64,000 bases of DNA, from the NCBI RefSeq assembly GCF_020524765.1, contig NZ_JAIVLR010000001.1:992001-1056000 (forward strand), read 5' to 3'. Under the pieces are notes generated by a model. The model did not search any database and was not told the origin of the DNA. It saw only the letters and a program-made list of their open reading frames with translations. Each line of letters starts with the position of its first letter. Within the stretch, counting starts at the first letter, position 1. Made by a program: the position numbers and the translations under genes. This DNA is from Qipengyuania gaetbuli. GTDB lineage: Bacteria > Pseudomonadota > Alphaproteobacteria > Sphingomonadales > Sphingomonadaceae. Shown piece after piece: positions 15,664 through 48,351 of the stretch.

Positions 15664-16299
15664 ATGGCACAGCGCATCATCATCGCCGACGACCACCCGC
15701 TCTTCCGCACGGCTCTGGGCCATGCGGTGGGCCGGGTGTGGCCCGAGGCCGAAATCGTCGAGACTTCGTCGGCCAGGGGCGCGCGCGAGGCGGTGGAGGC
15801 GGGGGCCGAAGCCCTGTTGCTCGACCTCCATATGGAGGATTCGAACGGGCTGTCGGCGCTGATGGACTTCCGCCAGGATTTCCCTGCGCTGCCGGTCGTG
15901 ATCGTTTCGGCGAGCGAAGAAGCGCGGGTCTATGCCGCCGCCAGCCAGCTGGGCGCGGCCGCTTTCATTCCCAAGTCCGCCAGCCTCGAGACCATGCGCG
16001 AGGCGCTGGCCTGCGTGCGCGAGGGCGAGAACTGGTTTCCCGAAACCGGCAGCGGACCGGACGAGGATTTGGCCAAGATCGCCAGCCTCACTCCCGCGCA
16101 GCGCCGCATCCTCGGCCAGCTGAGCGAAGGCCTGCTGAACAAGCAGATCGCCTATGAACTCGATATCAGCGAAGCGACCGTGAAGGCGCATATCACTGCG
16201 ATCTTCCGCAAGCTGGGCGTGGTCAACCGGACGCAGGCCGTGCTGCTGGCAGGCAAGCTGGATGTCGATCAGGCGGTGGCGGACCCCGCGGCCGGCTGA
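15664..16299 (+). CDS. crbR: LuxR/NarL-type response regulator, CrbR-like
   Basis: 211 residues: receiver domain with phospho-acceptor Asp54 (LLLDLHMED), acidic pocket DD at 9-10 and Lys in PKSAS; then a LuxR-type helix-turn-helix (about 145-205, LTPAQRRILGQLSEG ... ISEATVKAHITAIFRKLGV). In Vibrio, Pseudomonas and rhizobia the CrbS/CrbR pair switches acs on for acetate use. Here the regulator follows acs directly, and an SLC5-fused kinase lies on the opposite strand, so the CrbR role is a strong inference. Its last 31 bases overlap the 3' end of the kinase gene in antisense. Confidence 0.85.
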   Translation: MAQRIIIADDHPLFRTALGHAVGRVWPEAEIVETSSARGAREAVEAGAEALLLDLHMEDSNGLSALMDFRQDFPALPVVIVSASEEARVYAAASQLGAAAFIPKSASLETMREALACVREGENWFPETGSGPDEDLAKIASLTPAQRRILGQLSEGLLNKQIAYELDISEATVKAHITAIFRKLGVVNRTQAVLLAGKLDVDQAVADPAAG

Positions 16300-19200
16300 T
16301 CGCCGCCGGTTCCCCGCGCCACGCAATCCGAAATCAGTGCGCGCAGGGCTGCGGGCGATGACGGCTTGAGCAGTCGCTGGGCACCCATGCGCGATGCCGC
16401 CCGCTCGGTTTCCTCGCCCGCCTCCGCGGTCAGCAGGATGGCCGGCGGGCGCTTGCCCCAGGCGGCGCACAGCGCCTCGTAGACCCCGTCGCCGCGCTCG
16501 TCCTCGTCGAGGCGGAAGTCCATGATCGCCACGTCGGGCGGCGTTCCGGCCACCTCCAGCGCCTGCGACAGGCCATGCGCGCAGGTCACGGCCAGGCCCC
16601 ATTTGCCCAGCAGCGCCGCCGTGGCGCTGAGCGCGGCGGCATCATTGTCGACCACGAGGATGCGCGCGCCCGCCAGCGAGGATGCCGCACGCCGCCGCTC
16701 CGGCTGCACCCGCGCGCCCCAGCGCAGCACCGGCAGGCGCACCGCGAACCGGCTGCCGCGCCCGACGAAGGAGCGCGTCTCCACCTCGACGCCGAGCAGG
16801 GCGGTGATGCGCCGGACGATGGCAAGGCCGAGCCCGAGACCTTCGCGGTCCTGCGTCCTGCCGCGCTGGAATTCGCCGAACATCCGCTCGATATCCTCGT
16901 CCGCGATGCCTGCGCCGGTGTCGTAGACGCACAGGTCCACATCGCCTCCCGCGCGCCGCACGCCGAGCAGCACTCCGCCCCTGTCGGTATACCGGATGGC
17001 ATTACTGAGGAGGTTGCGCACCACGCTGCCGAGCAGGGCGCGGTCGGTGTCGATCCACACGCTGGTGGGCACGCGTTTCAGCGCCAGCCCCTTGCTTTCC
17101 GCCTGCACCGAAAACTCGCGCATCATCTCGTCGAAAATTTCGTCGAGCGCGACCGGTTCGGGGCGCGGTTCGATACCGCCGCCATCGAGTTTCGAAATGT
17201 CGAGCAGCGTGCGGATCAGCCGGTCGGCCGAGGTAATCGACCCGTCGAGATCGCGCACCAGCCGTTCGAGCTGGTCGCGCCCGCGAACTTCCTCGCCCAG
17301 CGCGGAGGCGAACAGTCGCGCGGCATTGAGCGGCTGGATCAGATCGTGGCTGGCCGCGGCAAGGAACCGCGTTTTCGAGCGCGTGGCCGCTTCGAGCGCG
17401 TTGTTCGCCTCGCTCAGCTGCTGCGTGCGTTCTGCGACCTTCTGTTCGAGCGCCTGTTCAGCCCGTCGGTCCGCAGTGACGTCGCTGTAGCTGGTCACGT
17501 AGCCGCCGCCCGGTGCGGGGTTGCCGACGATGCGCATGATGCGCCCGTCGTGCTGCTCGCGCTCCATCCGGTGGGTACGCCCGGCGCGCATGTGTTCGAG
17601 CCGGCGGGCGACCTGCTCCTCGATTTCGGCATGCGGAACGCCGCCCTGGCGCAGGTTGAAGCGGATAAGATCGGCGATCGGCGTGCCCACGCTGGCAAGC
17701 TGGTCGGGCAGTGCGAACATTTCCTGGTAGCGGCTGTTCCACGCCACGAGGTTCATGTCGCTGTCCACCAGCGCCACGCCCTGGTCGATGTTCTCGATGG
17801 CCAGTTGCAGCAGGTCGCCGCTGAAGGTCAGGCGGCGGCTGGTCTCGTCGAACATGGCCACGACCTGTTCGAGCGGGACGGCATCGCCCTGCGCCCAGCT
17901 GGCGGTGAGCATGCGCGCGGACGATGTACCGACCACGCCCGCGATCAGCCTTTCCGCCATGGCAAGCGCCTGCTCGTCGGCCGGATCGCTGTCGCGGTAG
18001 CCTGCGCCCAGCGCCTCTGCCGCGCGCCGCTGGCCGATGAACTGGGCCAGCAGCAGGCGGATGTCGGCAATGCGCTTGGCGGTGACGAAACCGGGCCGTG
18101 CGCCGGGCGGTGCGGTACCGACGAAAGCCGCCGCCTGCGCGGCATCGACCAGCGTCTCGCGTCCGAAGGCAGAGCCAGCCCAGTAGGCCGCGACATTGAA
18201 ACCGAGGCTCAGCAGCACGCCCGACACCAGCGTATCGGGATGGATGGCGAAGACCGGTGGCTGGTTCGTCGCCGCGGGCAGGATCAGCAGGACCAGCCAG
18301 CAGGCGAACCCGGCCAAGAGGCCGCTGGTCATGCCGGTCTTGTTGCCGTGGCGCGTCATCATGCCGAGCACGAGGCCAGGCGCGAACTGCGCCATGGCTG
18401 CAAAGGCCAGCGTTCCGAGACCGGCCAGCTCTGCCGCCGCCCCGAAGCCGAGATAGAAGAGATAGGCGAAGAACAGCAGGCCGCCGATGACGAGACGGCG
18501 CACCATCAGCAGGCGCAGCGCGAGGCGCGTTCGGTCGCCCCCGCCACGCAATTCGCGCCGGAACACCACCGGCAGAACGAGGTCGTTGGTGATCATCGTC
18601 GAAAGCGCCACGCTGGCGACCACGATCATGCCGGTCGATGCCGCGAACCCGCCAATGAAGACAAGCAGGGCCAGCAGCTCGCTGCCCGAGGACAGCGGCA
18701 GGGCCATCACGATCATGTCGCCCGGCGTCTGCGCCGGAAGCGCGGACAGGCCCGCCAGCACGATCGGCACGATTACGAGCGATGTGACCGCCAGATAGGC
18801 CGGGAAGACCCAGCGCATCGCCGCGCTGGCGCGGTCGGTCTGCGCCTCGACGAAGGTCATGTGGAACTGGCGCGGCAGGCACAGCGCCGCGCAGGCCGCA
18901 ATCAGGGTGAGTACGGCAAAGCGCGCATCGAACTGCTGCGCGGAAAAGGGCGAGACCGCTTCTCCCGCACCGTCTGGCTGTCCGGCAAGCAGCACCATCG
19001 CGAACGCCGCCAGCGCCAGCAGCGCGAACAGCTTCACTGCCGATTCCACCGCGATGGTGAGGACCAGCCCGGCATTGTCGCCGGCGCGGTCGGCCCTGCG
19101 CGAACCGAACAGGATCGCGAACAGCGCCATGCTGCCTGCAACCAGCAGGACCAGTTCGTCGGGTGAGACGCTGGCTTCCAGTTCTGGATCGAGCGCGAGC

Positions 19201-19631
19201 AGCGATGTGCCGACCGATTGCAGCTGCAGCGCCATGTAGGGGAGCGAGCCGACGGTCGCGAAGATCGTTACCAGCGCGGCGACCAGCGCGCTCTTGCCGT
19301 AGCGTGCCGACAGGAAGTCGGCGATCGAGGTGGAATGCTGCGCCTTGGCCTGCGCAAGGATGCGCCGCACCAGAGGATAGCCGAGCGAGAAGACCAGCAC
19401 CGGCCCAAGGTAGATCGGCAGGTAATGCCAGCCCGAACTTGCCGCCGAACCGACCCCGCCGAAGAAGGTCCAGCTGGTACAATAGACCGCAAGGCTCAGG
19501 CCGTAGATCCAGTCGCGCCGGCTGGCGGAGACAGGGCGGCCGGTCTCGGCCAGCCGGTCCTGCCGCGATGCCAGCCAGAACAGCAGTGCCAGGTATAGCG
19601 TCGCCGTAACGATCGCCGTGCCGAACAGCAT
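16269..19631 (-). CDS. crbS: SLC5-transporter-fused hybrid histidine kinase, CrbS-like
   Basis: 1120 residues in one chain: about 13 membrane segments of a sodium/solute symporter domain (1 to about 500, including CTSWTFFGGVGSAASSG), a linker, a PAS domain (about 610-725), a coiled-coil (VAERTQQLSEANNALEAA), a histidine-kinase core with phospho-accepting His762 (AASHDLIQPLN), N box (RNLLSNAIRYTD) and G boxes (DTGAGIADED, GLGLGLAIV), and a C-terminal receiver with Asp1038 (VAIMDFRLDED). This is the CbrA/CrbS class, which couples a transporter-like sensor to acetate or nutrient control. It is monocistronic behind a terminator that closes the symporter operon. The cognate regulator is probably the gene convergent with it. 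Confidence 0.92.
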   Translation of the reverse strand: MLFGTAIVTATLYLALLFWLASRQDRLAETGRPVSASRRDWIYGLSLAVYCTSWTFFGGVGSAASSGWHYLPIYLGPVLVFSLGYPLVRRILAQAKAQHSTSIADFLSARYGKSALVAALVTIFATVGSLPYMALQLQSVGTSLLALDPELEASVSPDELVLLVAGSMALFAILFGSRRADRAGDNAGLVLTIAVESAVKLFALLALAAFAMVLLAGQPDGAGEAVSPFSAQQFDARFAVLTLIAACAALCLPRQFHMTFVEAQTDRASAAMRWVFPAYLAVTSLVIVPIVLAGLSALPAQTPGDMIVMALPLSSGSELLALLVFIGGFAASTGMIVVASVALSTMITNDLVLPVVFRRELRGGGDRTRLALRLLMVRRLVIGGLLFFAYLFYLGFGAAAELAGLGTLAFAAMAQFAPGLVLGMMTRHGNKTGMTSGLLAGFACWLVLLILPAATNQPPVFAIHPDTLVSGVLLSLGFNVAAYWAGSAFGRETLVDAAQAAAFVGTAPPGARPGFVTAKRIADIRLLLAQFIGQRRAAEALGAGYRDSDPADEQALAMAERLIAGVVGTSSARMLTASWAQGDAVPLEQVVAMFDETSRRLTFSGDLLQLAIENIDQGVALVDSDMNLVAWNSRYQEMFALPDQLASVGTPIADLIRFNLRQGGVPHAEIEEQVARRLEHMRAGRTHRMEREQHDGRIMRIVGNPAPGGGYVTSYSDVTADRRAEQALEQKVAERTQQLSEANNALEAATRSKTRFLAAASHDLIQPLNAARLFASALGEEVRGRDQLERLVRDLDGSITSADRLIRTLLDISKLDGGGIEPRPEPVALDEIFDEMMREFSVQAESKGLALKRVPTSVWIDTDRALLGSVVRNLLSNAIRYTDRGGVLLGVRRAGGDVDLCVYDTGAGIADEDIERMFGEFQRGRTQDREGLGLGLAIVRRITALLGVEVETRSFVGRGSRFAVRLPVLRWGARVQPERRRAASSLAGARILVVDNDAAALSATAALLGKWGLAVTCAHGLSQALEVAGTPPDVAIMDFRLDEDERGDGVYEALCAAWGKRPPAILLTAEAGEETERAASRMGAQRLLKPSSPAALRALISDCVARGTGGDQPAAGSATA

Positions 19632-19681
19632 GGACCTCTCCCTTCCCCCGCGTGCAGCCTATCGAAACTGCCGTATCATGC

Positions 19682-19712
19682 AAGAAAGGGCGGCGCCGCG
19701 CGGCACCGCCCT
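19682..19712 (-). terminator. Rho-independent terminator after the symporter gene
   Basis: Read on the minus strand: an 11-bp GC-rich stem (arms 19702-19712 and 19687-19697, one G-T pair), a GCGC loop, then TTTCTTG. It lies 26 bases after the symporter stop and 51 bases before the kinase start, so it insulates the kinase gene from the symporter transcript. Confidence 0.8.
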
Positions 19713-19737
19713 TCCTCTGCGACTGTCCCGAAGGGCG

Positions 19738-21513
19738 TCAGTGTGCGTGGGCATCACCCGCGCCGCGGGGCACGCGGATCGAATCCACCAGCTTGCGGAT
19801 TTCGACCGGCGGGCTGGCGGTCATCTTCGACACCGCGATGGCGACGGCGAAGTTCAGCACCATTCCGACCACGCCGATCCCTTCGGGCGAGATGCCGAAG
19901 AGCCAGTTGTCCGCCACGTTCGCTGCCGGGTTCGCCAGCTTGAAGTAGAAGATGTAGCCGAAGGTGAAGGCGAGGCCCGTAACCATGCCCGCAATCGCCC
20001 CTTCCTTGTTCATGCGCTTCGAGAAGATGCCCATGAAGATGGCGGGGAACAGGCTGGCTGCGGCAAGGCCGAAGGCGAATGCCACCACCTGTGCCACCCA
20101 GCCCGGCGGGTAGATGCCGAGATAGCCTGCCACCACGATCGCTGCCGTTGCCGCAAGGCGCGCCGCCAGCAATTCGCCCTTCTCCGATATGTCGGGCTTG
20201 AAGGTCGACTTGAGCAAATCGTGGCTGACCGAGCTGGAAATCACCAGCAACAGGCCGGCAGCGGTCGACAATGCTGCGGCAAGCCCGCCGGCCGCGACCA
20301 GCGCAATCACCCAGCCCGGCAGATTGCCGATTTCCGGGTTGGCGAGGACCATGATGTCACGGTCGAGGTAGACCTCGTTCTCGCTGTCCGCGACCGGTGC
20401 GTTGGTGACGAGACGCTCACCCGAAGGACCGGTGCCTTCAGCGAAGGTCGGAGCGCCTTCAAACGCGTCGCCGCTGCGCACCTGCATCACCCCGTCGCCG
20501 TTCTTGTCCTGGAAGGCGATGAGATCGTTGCGCTCCCAGTTCTTGAACCAGCCCGGTGCTTCCGAATAGCTCGTCTCGTTGACCGTATCGATGAAGTTGA
20601 GGCGGGCAAAGGCGCCCACGGCAGGTGCGGTCGTGTAGAGCAGGGCGATGAAGATCAGCGCCCAGCCGGCCGACTTGCGGGCATCGGATGCCTTGGGAAC
20701 GGTGAAGAAGCGCACGATCACATGCGGCAGTCCCGCAGTCCCGACCATCAGGGCCAGCGTGATGCAGAACACATCGATCATGCTCTTTGACCCGTCGGTA
20801 TATTCCCCGAATCCCAGGTCGGTGAGCACCAGGTTGAGTTTCTGCAGCACGTACAGCCCGGACCCGTCGTTGACCTGGCTGCCCAGGCCGAACTGCGGGA
20901 TCGGATTGCCCGTGATCATGAAGCTCAGGAAGAAGGCCGGCACCATGTAGGCGAAGATCAGCACGCAATATTGCGCGACCTGCGTATAGGTGATGCCCTT
21001 CATCCCGCCGAGCACGGCATAGACGAAAACGATGCCCATGCCGATGATCACGCCCATGGTGATGTCGACGTCGAGGAAGCGCGAGAACACGATCCCCACG
21101 CCGCGCATCTGTCCGGCGATATAAGTGAAGCTGATGAAGATCAGGCAGATCACCGCGACCACGCGCGCGGTCTTGGAATAGTACCGCGTGCCGATGAAAT
21201 CGGGCACGGTGAACTGGCCGAACTTGCGCAGGTAAGGCGCCAGCAGGAGCGCCAGCATGACGTATCCGCCGGTCCAGCCCATCAGGTAGACCGAACCGTC
21301 ATAACCGAGGAAGGCGATCAGGCCCGCCATCGAGATGAAGCTTGCCGCGCTCATCCAGTCGGCAGCCGTGGCCATGCCGTTGACGACCGGGTTCACCCCG
21401 CCGCCGGCGACGTAGAACTCCTTCGTCGAACCTGCCCTGCTCCACAGGGCGATGCCGATGTAGAGTGCGAAGCTGGCGCCGACGAAGAGGTAGATCAGAG
21501 TTTGCGTGTCCAT
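19738..21513 (-). CDS. Sodium:solute symporter, ActP/acetate-permease-like (VC_2705 type)
   Basis: 591-residue SLC5 (SSS) family transporter with about 13-14 membrane segments; ATAADWMSAASFISMAG and the sodium-site region GGLAAALSTAAGLLLVISSSVSHDLL are typical. One long polar loop (about 310-385) contains an EF-hand-like DKNGDGVMQ. In this subfamily a small DUF4212 protein is encoded just before the symporter, as here, and members transport acetate or other short monocarboxylates. GGGAGGGG lies before the ATG. The location between acs/CrbSR genes supports acetate uptake; the substrate is inferred from context. Confidence 0.9.
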   Translation of the reverse strand: MDTQTLIYLFVGASFALYIGIALWSRAGSTKEFYVAGGGVNPVVNGMATAADWMSAASFISMAGLIAFLGYDGSVYLMGWTGGYVMLALLLAPYLRKFGQFTVPDFIGTRYYSKTARVVAVICLIFISFTYIAGQMRGVGIVFSRFLDVDITMGVIIGMGIVFVYAVLGGMKGITYTQVAQYCVLIFAYMVPAFFLSFMITGNPIPQFGLGSQVNDGSGLYVLQKLNLVLTDLGFGEYTDGSKSMIDVFCITLALMVGTAGLPHVIVRFFTVPKASDARKSAGWALIFIALLYTTAPAVGAFARLNFIDTVNETSYSEAPGWFKNWERNDLIAFQDKNGDGVMQVRSGDAFEGAPTFAEGTGPSGERLVTNAPVADSENEVYLDRDIMVLANPEIGNLPGWVIALVAAGGLAAALSTAAGLLLVISSSVSHDLLKSTFKPDISEKGELLAARLAATAAIVVAGYLGIYPPGWVAQVVAFAFGLAAASLFPAIFMGIFSKRMNKEGAIAGMVTGLAFTFGYIFYFKLANPAANVADNWLFGISPEGIGVVGMVLNFAVAIAVSKMTASPPVEIRKLVDSIRVPRGAGDAHAH

Positions 21514-46625: not shown

Positions 46626-47423
46626 TCAGAACGTGAACTCCGTCACCAGCGGAACGTGGTCCGATGGCTTTTCCCAGCCGCGCGCGTCCTCGTGCACGGC
46701 ATGGGCCGTGGCCTGCTTCGCCAGCTCGGGACTGGCCCACATGTGGTCGAGCCGCCGGCCGCGATCGTTCGCTTGCCAGTCCTTCGCGCGGTAGCTCCAC
46801 CAGCTGTAATAGCGTTCAGGGGCGGGAATGTGCTCGCGCCCGATATCGGCCCAGCCGTGCGCGTCCATGAAGCGCTGCAGGGCCTCCACCTCGATCGGCG
46901 TGTGGCTGACCACCTTGAGCAGCTGCTTGTGGTTCCACACGTCGCTTTCGAGCGGGGCGATGTTGAAATCGCCCACGATCAGCGTCGGGCGATCGACCTT
47001 GTCCGCCCAGCGGGTCATGCGCTCGAGGAAGTCGAGCTTCTGGCCGAACTTGGGATTGATCTCGCGGTCGGGCTCGTCGCCGCCGGCAGGCACGTAGACG
47101 TTCTCGACGATCATGCCCTGATGCTTCGAATCGGTCAGCTCCACGCCGACATGGCGCGCCTCGCCATTGTCCTGCCAATCGTGCTTGGAAAAATCGCGGA
47201 ACGGCACTTTGCCGACCGTGGCGACACCGTGATAGCCCTTCTGCCCGTGGATCGCGAAATGCTCGTAACCGAGCGCGCGGAAGGCTTCGAAAGGAAACTG
47301 GTGCTCCTGGCACTTGATTTCCTGCAGGCAGAGGATGTCGGGCGCCTGTTCCTTAAGGAAGCGCTCGACGATCGGCATGCGGAGGCGGACGGAATTGATG
47401 TTCCAGGAAGCGACTGAGACCAT
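46626..47423 (-). CDS. xth: Exodeoxyribonuclease III (AP endonuclease)
   Basis: 265-residue EEP-fold nuclease that cuts 5' of abasic sites in base-excision repair. Conserved pieces: SWNINSVRLR, CLQEIKCQ (metal-binding Glu), GDFNIAPLESDVWNHK (catalytic Asp and Asn) and the final SDHVPLVTEF (catalytic Asp-His). The ATG 47423 gives the usual MVSVASWNINS; an upstream frame extension would run into the sRNA terminator. It lies 36 bases before ribA on the same strand. Confidence 0.95.
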   Translation of the reverse strand: MVSVASWNINSVRLRMPIVERFLKEQAPDILCLQEIKCQEHQFPFEAFRALGYEHFAIHGQKGYHGVATVGKVPFRDFSKHDWQDNGEARHVGVELTDSKHQGMIVENVYVPAGGDEPDREINPKFGQKLDFLERMTRWADKVDRPTLIVGDFNIAPLESDVWNHKQLLKVVSHTPIEVEALQRFMDAHGWADIGREHIPAPERYYSWWSYRAKDWQANDRGRRLDHMWASPELAKQATAHAVHEDARGWEKPSDHVPLVTEFTF

Positions 47424-47472: not shown

Positions 47473-47512
47473 AACAAAAAACCCTCGAGCCGGGGGCAAA
47501 TGGCTCGAGGGT
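47473..47512 (-). terminator. Rho-independent terminator (end of candidate sRNA)
   Basis: On the minus strand: an 11-bp perfect stem ACCCTCGAGCC / GGCTCGAGGGT (arms 47512-47502 and 47491-47481), loop ATTTGCCCCC, and a T-rich tail TTTTTGTTGT. It lies about 50 bases before the xth start and 177 bases after the lolA stop, so it ends the RNA produced in between. Confidence 0.92.
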
Positions 47513-47599
47513 TCCTTGTGAGCGTTCGTCACGCTTGGAACGAAGCGATTTTGAGGGGTGGCAATCAACAGGGGGGAAATTGCCTTCCGTCGCTTCGTA
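47475..47599 (-). ncRNA. Candidate trans-acting small RNA with C-rich loops
   Basis: About 125 bases between lolA and xth fold into three hairpins. Hairpin 1 has an outer 9-bp stem (ACGAAGCGA / TCGCTTCGT, 47590-47598 with 47540-47548) and an inner 6-bp stem (GGCAAT / ATTGCC, 47579-47584 with 47560-47565) closing a 13-base loop TTCCCCCCTGTTG. A short hairpin AGCGT / ACGCT follows (47521-47535), then the terminator, whose loop also ends in CCCCC. A promoter-like TTGAGC-N17-TATTTA at 47606-47634 would start the RNA at the base of hairpin 1. Exposed C runs complementary to Shine-Dalgarno sequences are typical of alphaproteobacterial sRNAs. No open reading frame of merit lies here. I recognise no named family. 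Confidence 0.6.
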
Positions 47600-47605
47600 G
47601 ACTCA

Positions 47606-47634
47606 TAAATAGGCGCCCCCGGCTTGCTGCTCAA
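47606..47634 (-). promoter_or_regulatory. Sigma-70-like promoter of the candidate sRNA
   Basis: Minus strand: -35 TTGAGC (47629-47634), spacer of exactly 17 bases, -10 TATTTA (47606-47611). Transcription would begin around 47599, one base before hairpin 1 of the candidate sRNA. It lies entirely in the gap downstream of lolA. Confidence 0.55.
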
Positions 47635-47688
47635 TGAACATTGCGCAGCGGAAAATCGCATCAGGCGAACGGTTCGTCGCCAGAGCGT

Positions 47689-48351
47689 TTACCCCGGGCG
47701 ACGGGACGATTTGCGCGGGTCGCGGAAGCTGAACGCGCTGTCGGCTACCGACACGCCGTAGCGATGGTTGCGCAGGCGCACGGTGGTGCGATGATTCTGC
47801 GAATCGAGCGCTACCCAATGGGTCAGCCTGAGGCCGCCGGGCGAGGCTGCGTCGCGGGAGAAAATCAGCGTGATCGCGCCGAATTCGGGCCGCTTGGGAT
47901 CGCGCACCTCGATGCTGATGACATCGCTGTGGCCGGTCGGGATCAGCTTGCCGTACTGCTTCACGTCGCGGCTGGGATCGAGCAGCGCGCCGAGCGGCGA
48001 ATTCTTGATCGGCCAACGCTGGACCTGGTTCACCTCATAGTCGACCATGTACATCGACTTGCCGTTCGAGACGACGAGCAGGGGCACCGACTTTTCGTAT
48101 TCGAAGCGGATCTTGCCGGGGCGCTTCAGCGTCATGACGCCCGAGACCGACTGGCCATTGCGGTCGGTCTGGACGAAATCGGCCTTCATCGTGCTGATGC
48201 CGCGCAGGGCCTCGACCGCACGGTCGAGATCGCCGGCGGCCGCTTCGACAGGAGTCGGCGCAGCGACGAAGGATGCAGGAATCGCCGCGGCCACCGCGAG
48301 TGCGATGGCCGATGCGAAAGGCTTGGTCTTGAAGATGGTCAAGGTGTTCAT
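47689..48351 (-). CDS. lolA: Outer-membrane lipoprotein carrier LolA
   Basis: 220 residues: a signal peptide (about 1-40, ending VAAPTPVEAAAG) and a LolA-type half-open beta-barrel that carries lipoproteins across the periplasm. Conserved parts are FVQTDRNGQSVSGVMTLKRPGKIRFEYEK and VSNGKSMYMVDYEVNQVQRWPI; the end (ADSAFSFRDPRK) matches the final strand of the family. The start MNTLTIFKTKPFAS gives a proper signal peptide. It is followed by the candidate sRNA and terminator. Confidence 0.93.
   Translation of the reverse strand: MNTLTIFKTKPFASAIALAVAAAIPASFVAAPTPVEAAAGDLDRAVEALRGISTMKADFVQTDRNGQSVSGVMTLKRPGKIRFEYEKSVPLLVVSNGKSMYMVDYEVNQVQRWPIKNSPLGALLDPSRDVKQYGKLIPTGHSDVISIEVRDPKRPEFGAITLIFSRDAASPGGLRLTHWVALDSQNHRTTVRLRNHRYGVSVADSAFSFRDPRKSSRRPG

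Follow-up and report, generated by a model that had tools for sequence, protein, structure and literature searches.

The window analysed here is the whole 64,000-nt stretch of the Qipengyuania gaetbuli contig NZ_JAIVLR010000001.1. On its minus strand, the gap between lolA and xth carries, from 47634 to 47475, a promoter of weak sequence followed by three structured elements (Table 1): a two-tier hairpin whose loop has CCCCCC, a second hairpin of 5 bp, and a strong terminator, the loop of which has CCCCC. The initial annotation, made from the letters alone, had proposed a free-standing small RNA (sRNA) gene with C-rich loops at this place. Support for this proposal comes from the conservation of an element upstream, the covariation of the stems, the terminator, and the near-universal presence of the RNA in the family (Sphingomonadaceae).

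Table 1. Features of the lolA-xth region of the window.
Feature	Position	Strand	Basis
lolA, upstream neighbour	47689..48351	-	translation; name from the initial annotation and homologous position
Conserved upstream element GTTCAT-N6-GCAAG-N11-TA	47610..47639	-	176 aligned upstream regions; exact match here
-35-like TTGAGC	47629..47634	-	direct reading; weakly kept (first T.85, second T.65, then G.48 and A.47)
-10-like TATTTA	47606..47611	-	direct reading; first TA alone well kept (97%)
Stem-loop 1, two-tier	47540..47598	-	RNAfold; two-sided changes in 6/6 outer-helix pairs
Loop 1 UUUCCCCCCUGUUG	47566..47579	-	proposed seed; conserved across loci
Hairpin 2 AGCGUGACGAACGCU, 5 bp	47521..47535	-	RNAfold
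Rho-independent terminator, C-rich loop AUUUGCCCCC, U tail	47475..47518	-	RNAfold; covariation
xth (exodeoxyribonuclease III type), downstream neighbour	46626..47423	-	translation; name from the initial annotation

The hexamers TTGAGC and TATTTA are present as annotated, separated by a 17-nt spacer. The transcript would start near 47600-47598 and, to judge from the sequence, would be about 120-125 nt long. A simple scanner for promoters and terminators reported neither the promoter nor the terminator of the RNA, because the hexamers match the consensus at 7/12 positions only and the terminator loop exceeds the scanner's limit of 8.

The minimum free energy calculated by RNAfold for 47606-47475 (minus strand) is -55.7 kcal/mol, compared with -31.7 (sd 3.4) in 200 shuffles, none of which (0/200) folded as well (z = -7.0). 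The 9-bp outer stem of stem-loop 1, within 47598-47540, is as annotated; the inner stem, described as 6 bp, has 7 bp with the addition of a U-G pair and closes the C6 loop. RNAfold also agrees with the annotated short second hairpin and with a terminator whose core is a perfect 11-bp stem (ACCCTCGAGCC/GGCTCGAGGGT) with a 10-nt loop (ATTTGCCCCC), in which the CCCCC lies, and a T tail. The absence of coding content was equally upheld, since no reading frame is kept across 175 homologues: those free of stops number 40, 32, and 81 of 175 in the three loop-anchored frames, and the distance from the loop to hairpin 2 varies modulo 3 (78/49/48).

Conservation of the structure and of the upstream element

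Alignment A1 contains 70 of 112 non-redundant loci (43 BLAST-derived and 27 pattern-derived). Its covariation score is 0.291, compared with 0.155 in shuffles, none of which (0/500) scored as high. Paired cells amount to 90.9%, against 83.5% in shuffles and 34-59% with partners slid, the structure being favoured over its slid versions by its partial derivation from one aligned sequence. Compensatory changes among relatives, on which the initial annotation had made its proposal depend, were found: 23/35 pairs changed on both sides, and there were 211 compensatory cells compared with 79 in shuffles (0/500 as high). Most of the covariation signal comes from the outer stem of hairpin 1 and from the terminator; the latter shows two-sided changes in 8/13 pairs and 99.9% of paired cells in the 70-sequence alignment. 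The structure of the RNA is under selection, its long stems being backed by compensatory changes. The inner tier aligned less well (67% in helix 3), with an additional A bordering the loop in one clade.

The two other elements are conserved in sequence. Loop 1 is identical in 53/58 BLAST-derived loci and has a single mismatch in the other 5, whereas hairpin 2 is invariant at its 13 inner columns in all 58 and, because it hardly varies, gives no covariation test. In the 117 pattern-derived loci among the 175, the invariance of both elements is by construction, since the pattern used to fetch these loci contains loop 1 and hairpin 2. In 32 more distant family loci, loop 1 keeps CCCCTG in 32/32, CCCCTGTT in 30/32, and all six C in 7/32; the exact hairpin-2 13-mer is found in 20/32 (it is altered in 12/32) and the C5 terminator loop in 28/32.

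With respect to the promoter, the conserved signal across 176 upstream regions is GTTCAT-N6-G[C/A]AAG-N11-TA and not the -35 hexamer, which is weakly kept. This signal begins ahead of the -35 region and extends as far as the first bases of the -10. Column conservation reaches 97% for the G at +11, 90 and 98% for AA, and 97 and 97% for TA; TTCA was the anchor of the alignment, and its 100% is by construction. When up to two mismatches are allowed, the signal has 1 match in the window, which is exact and located at the RNA (chance expectation, 0.7). The element overlaps the -35 region, like a regulator site. A ChvI site (TTGC-N3-GCAA) was tried as a reading of the promoter and does not fit.

Distribution and genetic context

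BLASTN searches with a 166-nt query detected the RNA in 37/37 same-genus genomes (E 7.6e-11 or better) and in 101/199 genomes of the family (E<=0.01), and gave nothing better than E 0.02 in 24 genomes of the order from outside the family. The covariance search suggested by the initial annotation was run across the order with model R1, built from the 70 non-redundant A1 sequences: 218/296 genomes were matched at E<=0.01, 210 of them inside the family and 8 outside. This means 210/213 sampled family genomes, and the 3 same-family misses were recovered with laxer filters (E 1.3e-7 to 2.9e-10). The 58 misses beyond those listed would, to judge from the order of the list, all belong to other families. 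Carriers among the matches listed in the pattern search (80 of 119 stretches) include Erythrobacter, Novosphingobium, Porphyrobacter, Croceibacterium, and Aurantiacibacter. The lolA-xth RNA is a true RNA gene, strongly conserved and nearly universal in the family.

Outside the family, matches L219 and L223 (family f2) sit between lolA and xth, and because of this synteny they are regarded as true members. The 16 other weak matches (L221, L222, and L224-L237), with neither lolA nor xth within their flanks, are taken as chance. Two of these, L228 (G150) and L229 (G338), are second covariance-model matches in family genomes, away from lolA (E 4.6e-5 and 2.7e-4), and could be chance or paralogues.

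Synteny was analysed in 175 loci, which represent 151 distinct RNA sequences with some genomes counted twice. lolA lies upstream on the same strand in 174/175, and the one locus that departs from this sits at the end of its stretch. xth lies downstream in 135/175, at a distance of up to 321 nt in 100 of them and of more than 1.4 kb in 35; of the 40 loci without xth, the sequence available downstream is shorter than 1.7 kb in 33 and longer in 7. Therefore, lolA and not xth is the constant partner of the RNA. In 20 distant family loci, lolA is present in 20/20 and xth in 18/20; the figures for 13 laxer-filter covariance matches of at least 37 bits are 11/13 and 13/13, respectively.

Since the RNA lies 46-392 nt behind lolA (tblastn ends) on the same strand in 174/175 loci, and the scanner reported no other terminator between the two (though it also missed that of the RNA), lolA transcription might reach the terminator and the sRNA might be cut from the 3' UTR of the lolA mRNA and lack a dedicated promoter. 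However, the upstream element is sharply conserved at fixed spacing, and in Caulobacter rusT, the sRNA gene of the corresponding gap, has its own promoter, which is occupied by NtrX (PMC11005374). An origin from the lolA mRNA is thus considered distinctly unlikely. The other neighbour suggests a cis-acting leader or attenuator of xth, as only about 50 nt separate the end of the terminator from the start of xth in the window. Such a role is very improbable: the RNA is kept all the same in the 35/135 loci in which xth is more than 1.4 kb downstream and in another 7 that show no xth at all although 1.7 kb or more of sequence is available downstream, and some other families seem, by eye, to have a frame between lolA and xth.

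An independently transcribed RNA, as preferred here, has possible relatives behind lolA beyond the family. Terminators with C4+ loops occur downstream of lolA in 8/22 loci from other families of the order (f2, f4, f6, and f7) and in 3/28 class-sample loci, compared with 0/150 control stretches (three per locus); they were not found in 14/22 and 25/28, respectively. Terminators with any loop are present in 14/22 and 6/28 loci, compared with 4/66 and 3/84 in the controls. Some other-family loci share the plan, by eye, of a C-rich loop, a short hairpin, and a GCGCCCGG...CCGGGCGC terminator; the f2 locus L282 retains GCGTGACGAACG, and the fold of locus L271, from another family, has four stem-loops by eye. 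These data support an origin of the RNA before the family, but most class-sample loci are without such a terminator.

Other observations were made at these loci. A frame of roughly 200 codons seems, by eye, to lie between lolA and xth at L269, L273, L276, L283, and L287, from other families of the order. Two distant lolA loci gave sub-threshold Rfam matches downstream of lolA to ar14 (RF02344) and ar7 (RF02342), with 28.5 and 27.3 bits and E about 0.2 (L223:1517-1631 and L274:2215-2369). Identity with ar7 or ar14 was rejected, the scores being far below gathering (58.8 and 60) and the window RNA having no match. A search for ar7 across the class found 0/190 genomes and 0 controls either, so it is uninformative. 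Anti-hemB was also discarded, its weak matches being confined to distant lolA loci.

Putative targets

The action of the C runs on Shine-Dalgarno sequences, put forward in the initial annotation, stays conjectural, the simple enrichment test being negative. In 19 same-genus genomes the target pattern CAACAGGGG-N3-12-ATG, in which the 9-nt seed complement precedes a start codon, gave 65 sites, not clearly more than the 55 of the composition-matched ACCAAGGGG; 12 outgroup genomes gave 55 sites with each. A backwards-pattern control, which does not keep the order of a ribosome site, gave 8 sites in the 19 genomes. Plausible starts followed 13/62 distinct seed sites and 6/54 control sites, which is not clearly different, and 6/13 of the former and 3/6 of the latter seem to encode exported or membrane-bound proteins.

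The search for leaders complementary to the C-rich loops, also suggested by the initial annotation, therefore yielded no clear seed enrichment, but it did yield a lead in the G-rich leaders of ctrA. In Caulobacter, a CCCC loop of the sRNA CcnA (CCNA_R0094) pairs with GGGG in the 5' UTR of ctrA and gcrA (PMC8959179), and the window RNA might regulate ctrA in the same manner, instead of or besides envelope mRNAs. ctrA was found in 95/109 cases, and leaders were taken from 88 of 90 fetched family genomes. A G-run of 4 or more is present in 90% of these 88, compared with 1-26% for five neighbouring control genes; AGGGG lies within 40 nt in 69/88 and GGGGG in 48/88. Loop and flank together pair better with the ctrA leaders than 200/200 flank-permuted versions (-19.6 vs -17.1, sd 0.7), the tested flank UGUUGCCC being that of the family majority while the source genome has UGUUGAUUGCC. 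On the other hand, CAACAGGGG itself occurs in 1/88 ctrA leaders, the loop alone is no better on them than permuted loops (3/9 as good), 5/37 window genes of the source genome pair as well as ctrA, and a fairly good rank of the true flank is seen with control leaders too (2/100 for lolA and 20-27/100 for four others). Target evidence is weak, and ctrA, although the best lead, is a lead only; its regulation by the RNA is conceivable but doubtful.

Many ctrA leaders (L482-L570) contain, by eye, a hairpin-like stretch such as GGCAACACCTCTT...GAGGGGTTACC and, between it and the start codon, GGGGCAA-AGGGGG; this shared arrangement is a possible regulatory leader. Other genes with G-rich starts were noticed. 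For instance, in five same-genus genomes, the source genome among them, a gene has CAACAGGGG, which is complementary to loop 1 over nine bases, ahead of its start at a similar spacing (L348, L339, L353, L390, and L407); the L348 copy is of the OmpA family by Pfam. A PspA/IM30-like gene (L368-L389), present in 22/99 searched relatives, is in most cases preceded by a ribosome-binding site of the AGGGG(G) type, with CAACAGGGGG in 4/22 leaders and a G-run of 4 or more in 95% of the 20 used. Within the window, a PAS hybrid histidine kinase gene and a sodium:solute symporter (SSF) gene (16269-21513) have G-rich starts for which good pairing with loop 1 is calculated (-20.8 and -19.0 kcal/mol, respectively).

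Relationship to RusT and other known sRNAs

No Rfam 15 family reaches threshold in the window, and the matches within the RNA stretch (E 0.29-6.5) are far below gathering scores. The -35 motif of sigma-EcfG promoters is GGAAC. By direct reading, this motif is absent from 47720-47601 (minus strand), and identity with GsrN was set aside. The Caulobacter GsrN is also a trans-acting sRNA with an exposed C-rich loop, but it has a Sigma-T promoter, it typically lies beside general-stress genes in relatives, and it activates katG (PMC5869019). Its authors looked at Erythrobacter litoralis and found no apparent gsrN-like gene there (PMC5869019). CcnA, with CCCC in an exposed loop, was set aside as a different gene by locus and length: it is 182 nt long and located at the replication origin (PMC8959179), whereas the window RNA would be about 120-125 nt and belongs to the lolA-xth locus.

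SuhB is a sphingomonad sRNA acting on a 5' UTR with Hfq (PMC6563040), which could suggest that the window RNA is this conserved SuhB/MmgR RNA or a divergent copy of it. This is virtually out of the question: there is no RF00519 match at the window RNA, and the RF00519 copy of the same genome sits at a separate locus (C1:1522929-1523007, 55.2 bits), so that identity is refuted. Both are linked to Hfq, in the window RNA by analogy, but SuhB is 61 nt long in strain TFA.

The initial annotation recognised no named family, which holds for Rfam. However, the lolA-xth gap of Caulobacter (CCNA_03820/03821) yields RusT (CCNA_R0199), an Hfq-bound sRNA of 118 nt (PMC11005374). Thus, the RNA is not without precedent. 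RusT is described as having four stem-loops by probing, with the seed in the conserved SL2 loop (C53), Hfq at SL3, and the terminator at SL4 (PMC11005374). It is constitutively expressed in ntrX insertion mutants, it is induced about 5- and 9-fold by iron chelation and zinc, and 19 transcripts, among them those of eight TonB receptors, are repressed (PMC11005374).

The window RNA is likely the sphingomonad representative of the RusT locus, that is, a trans-acting sRNA of about 120-125 nt transcribed independently of its neighbours. The proposed homology is argued from position and anatomy. By its position, hairpin 2 would be the counterpart of the Hfq-binding SL3. Carrying over the Caulobacter data, Hfq would bind next to the terminator and would assist pairing of the exposed loop CCCCCCUGUUG with mRNAs, those for envelope proteins among others, at ribosome-binding regions rich in G, which may block or tune their translation. 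A regulator at the promoter (NtrX in Caulobacter) would switch the RNA when metal or the envelope causes stress. Both hfq and ntrYX occur in sphingomonads.

No published record of the sphingomonad RNA was found in the open-licence literature. It is read as ordinary in kind and new in place, a sphingomonad RusT-type sRNA, and RusT, so far described in a single family, probably has a greater age and a wider distribution. Through the link to RusT, a conserved element that had no name becomes a candidate iron/envelope regulator. Although almost every sampled member of this large environmental family has the RNA, no Rfam 15 family reaches threshold in the window. The RNA also offers deep covariation data, and its highly conserved hairpin is a candidate site for Hfq. 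A broader reading is that RusT could be an ancient alphaproteobacterial sRNA behind lolA, whose C-loop in sphingomonads would have been drawn into the control of ctrA and other genes with G-rich leaders, coupling metal/envelope stress to the cell cycle; we regard this as speculative and rather improbable.

RusT and the window RNA share the lolA-xth position, a similar length (118 nt and a predicted 120-125 nt), a conserved loop that is the seed in RusT and the proposed one in the window RNA, a short stem-loop before the terminator, and a Rho-independent end. They differ in that RusT has four probed stem-loops, whereas three are predicted in the window RNA, the first of them two-tiered. Moreover, homologues of RusT were reported by its authors in close Caulobacteraceae only (PMC11005374).
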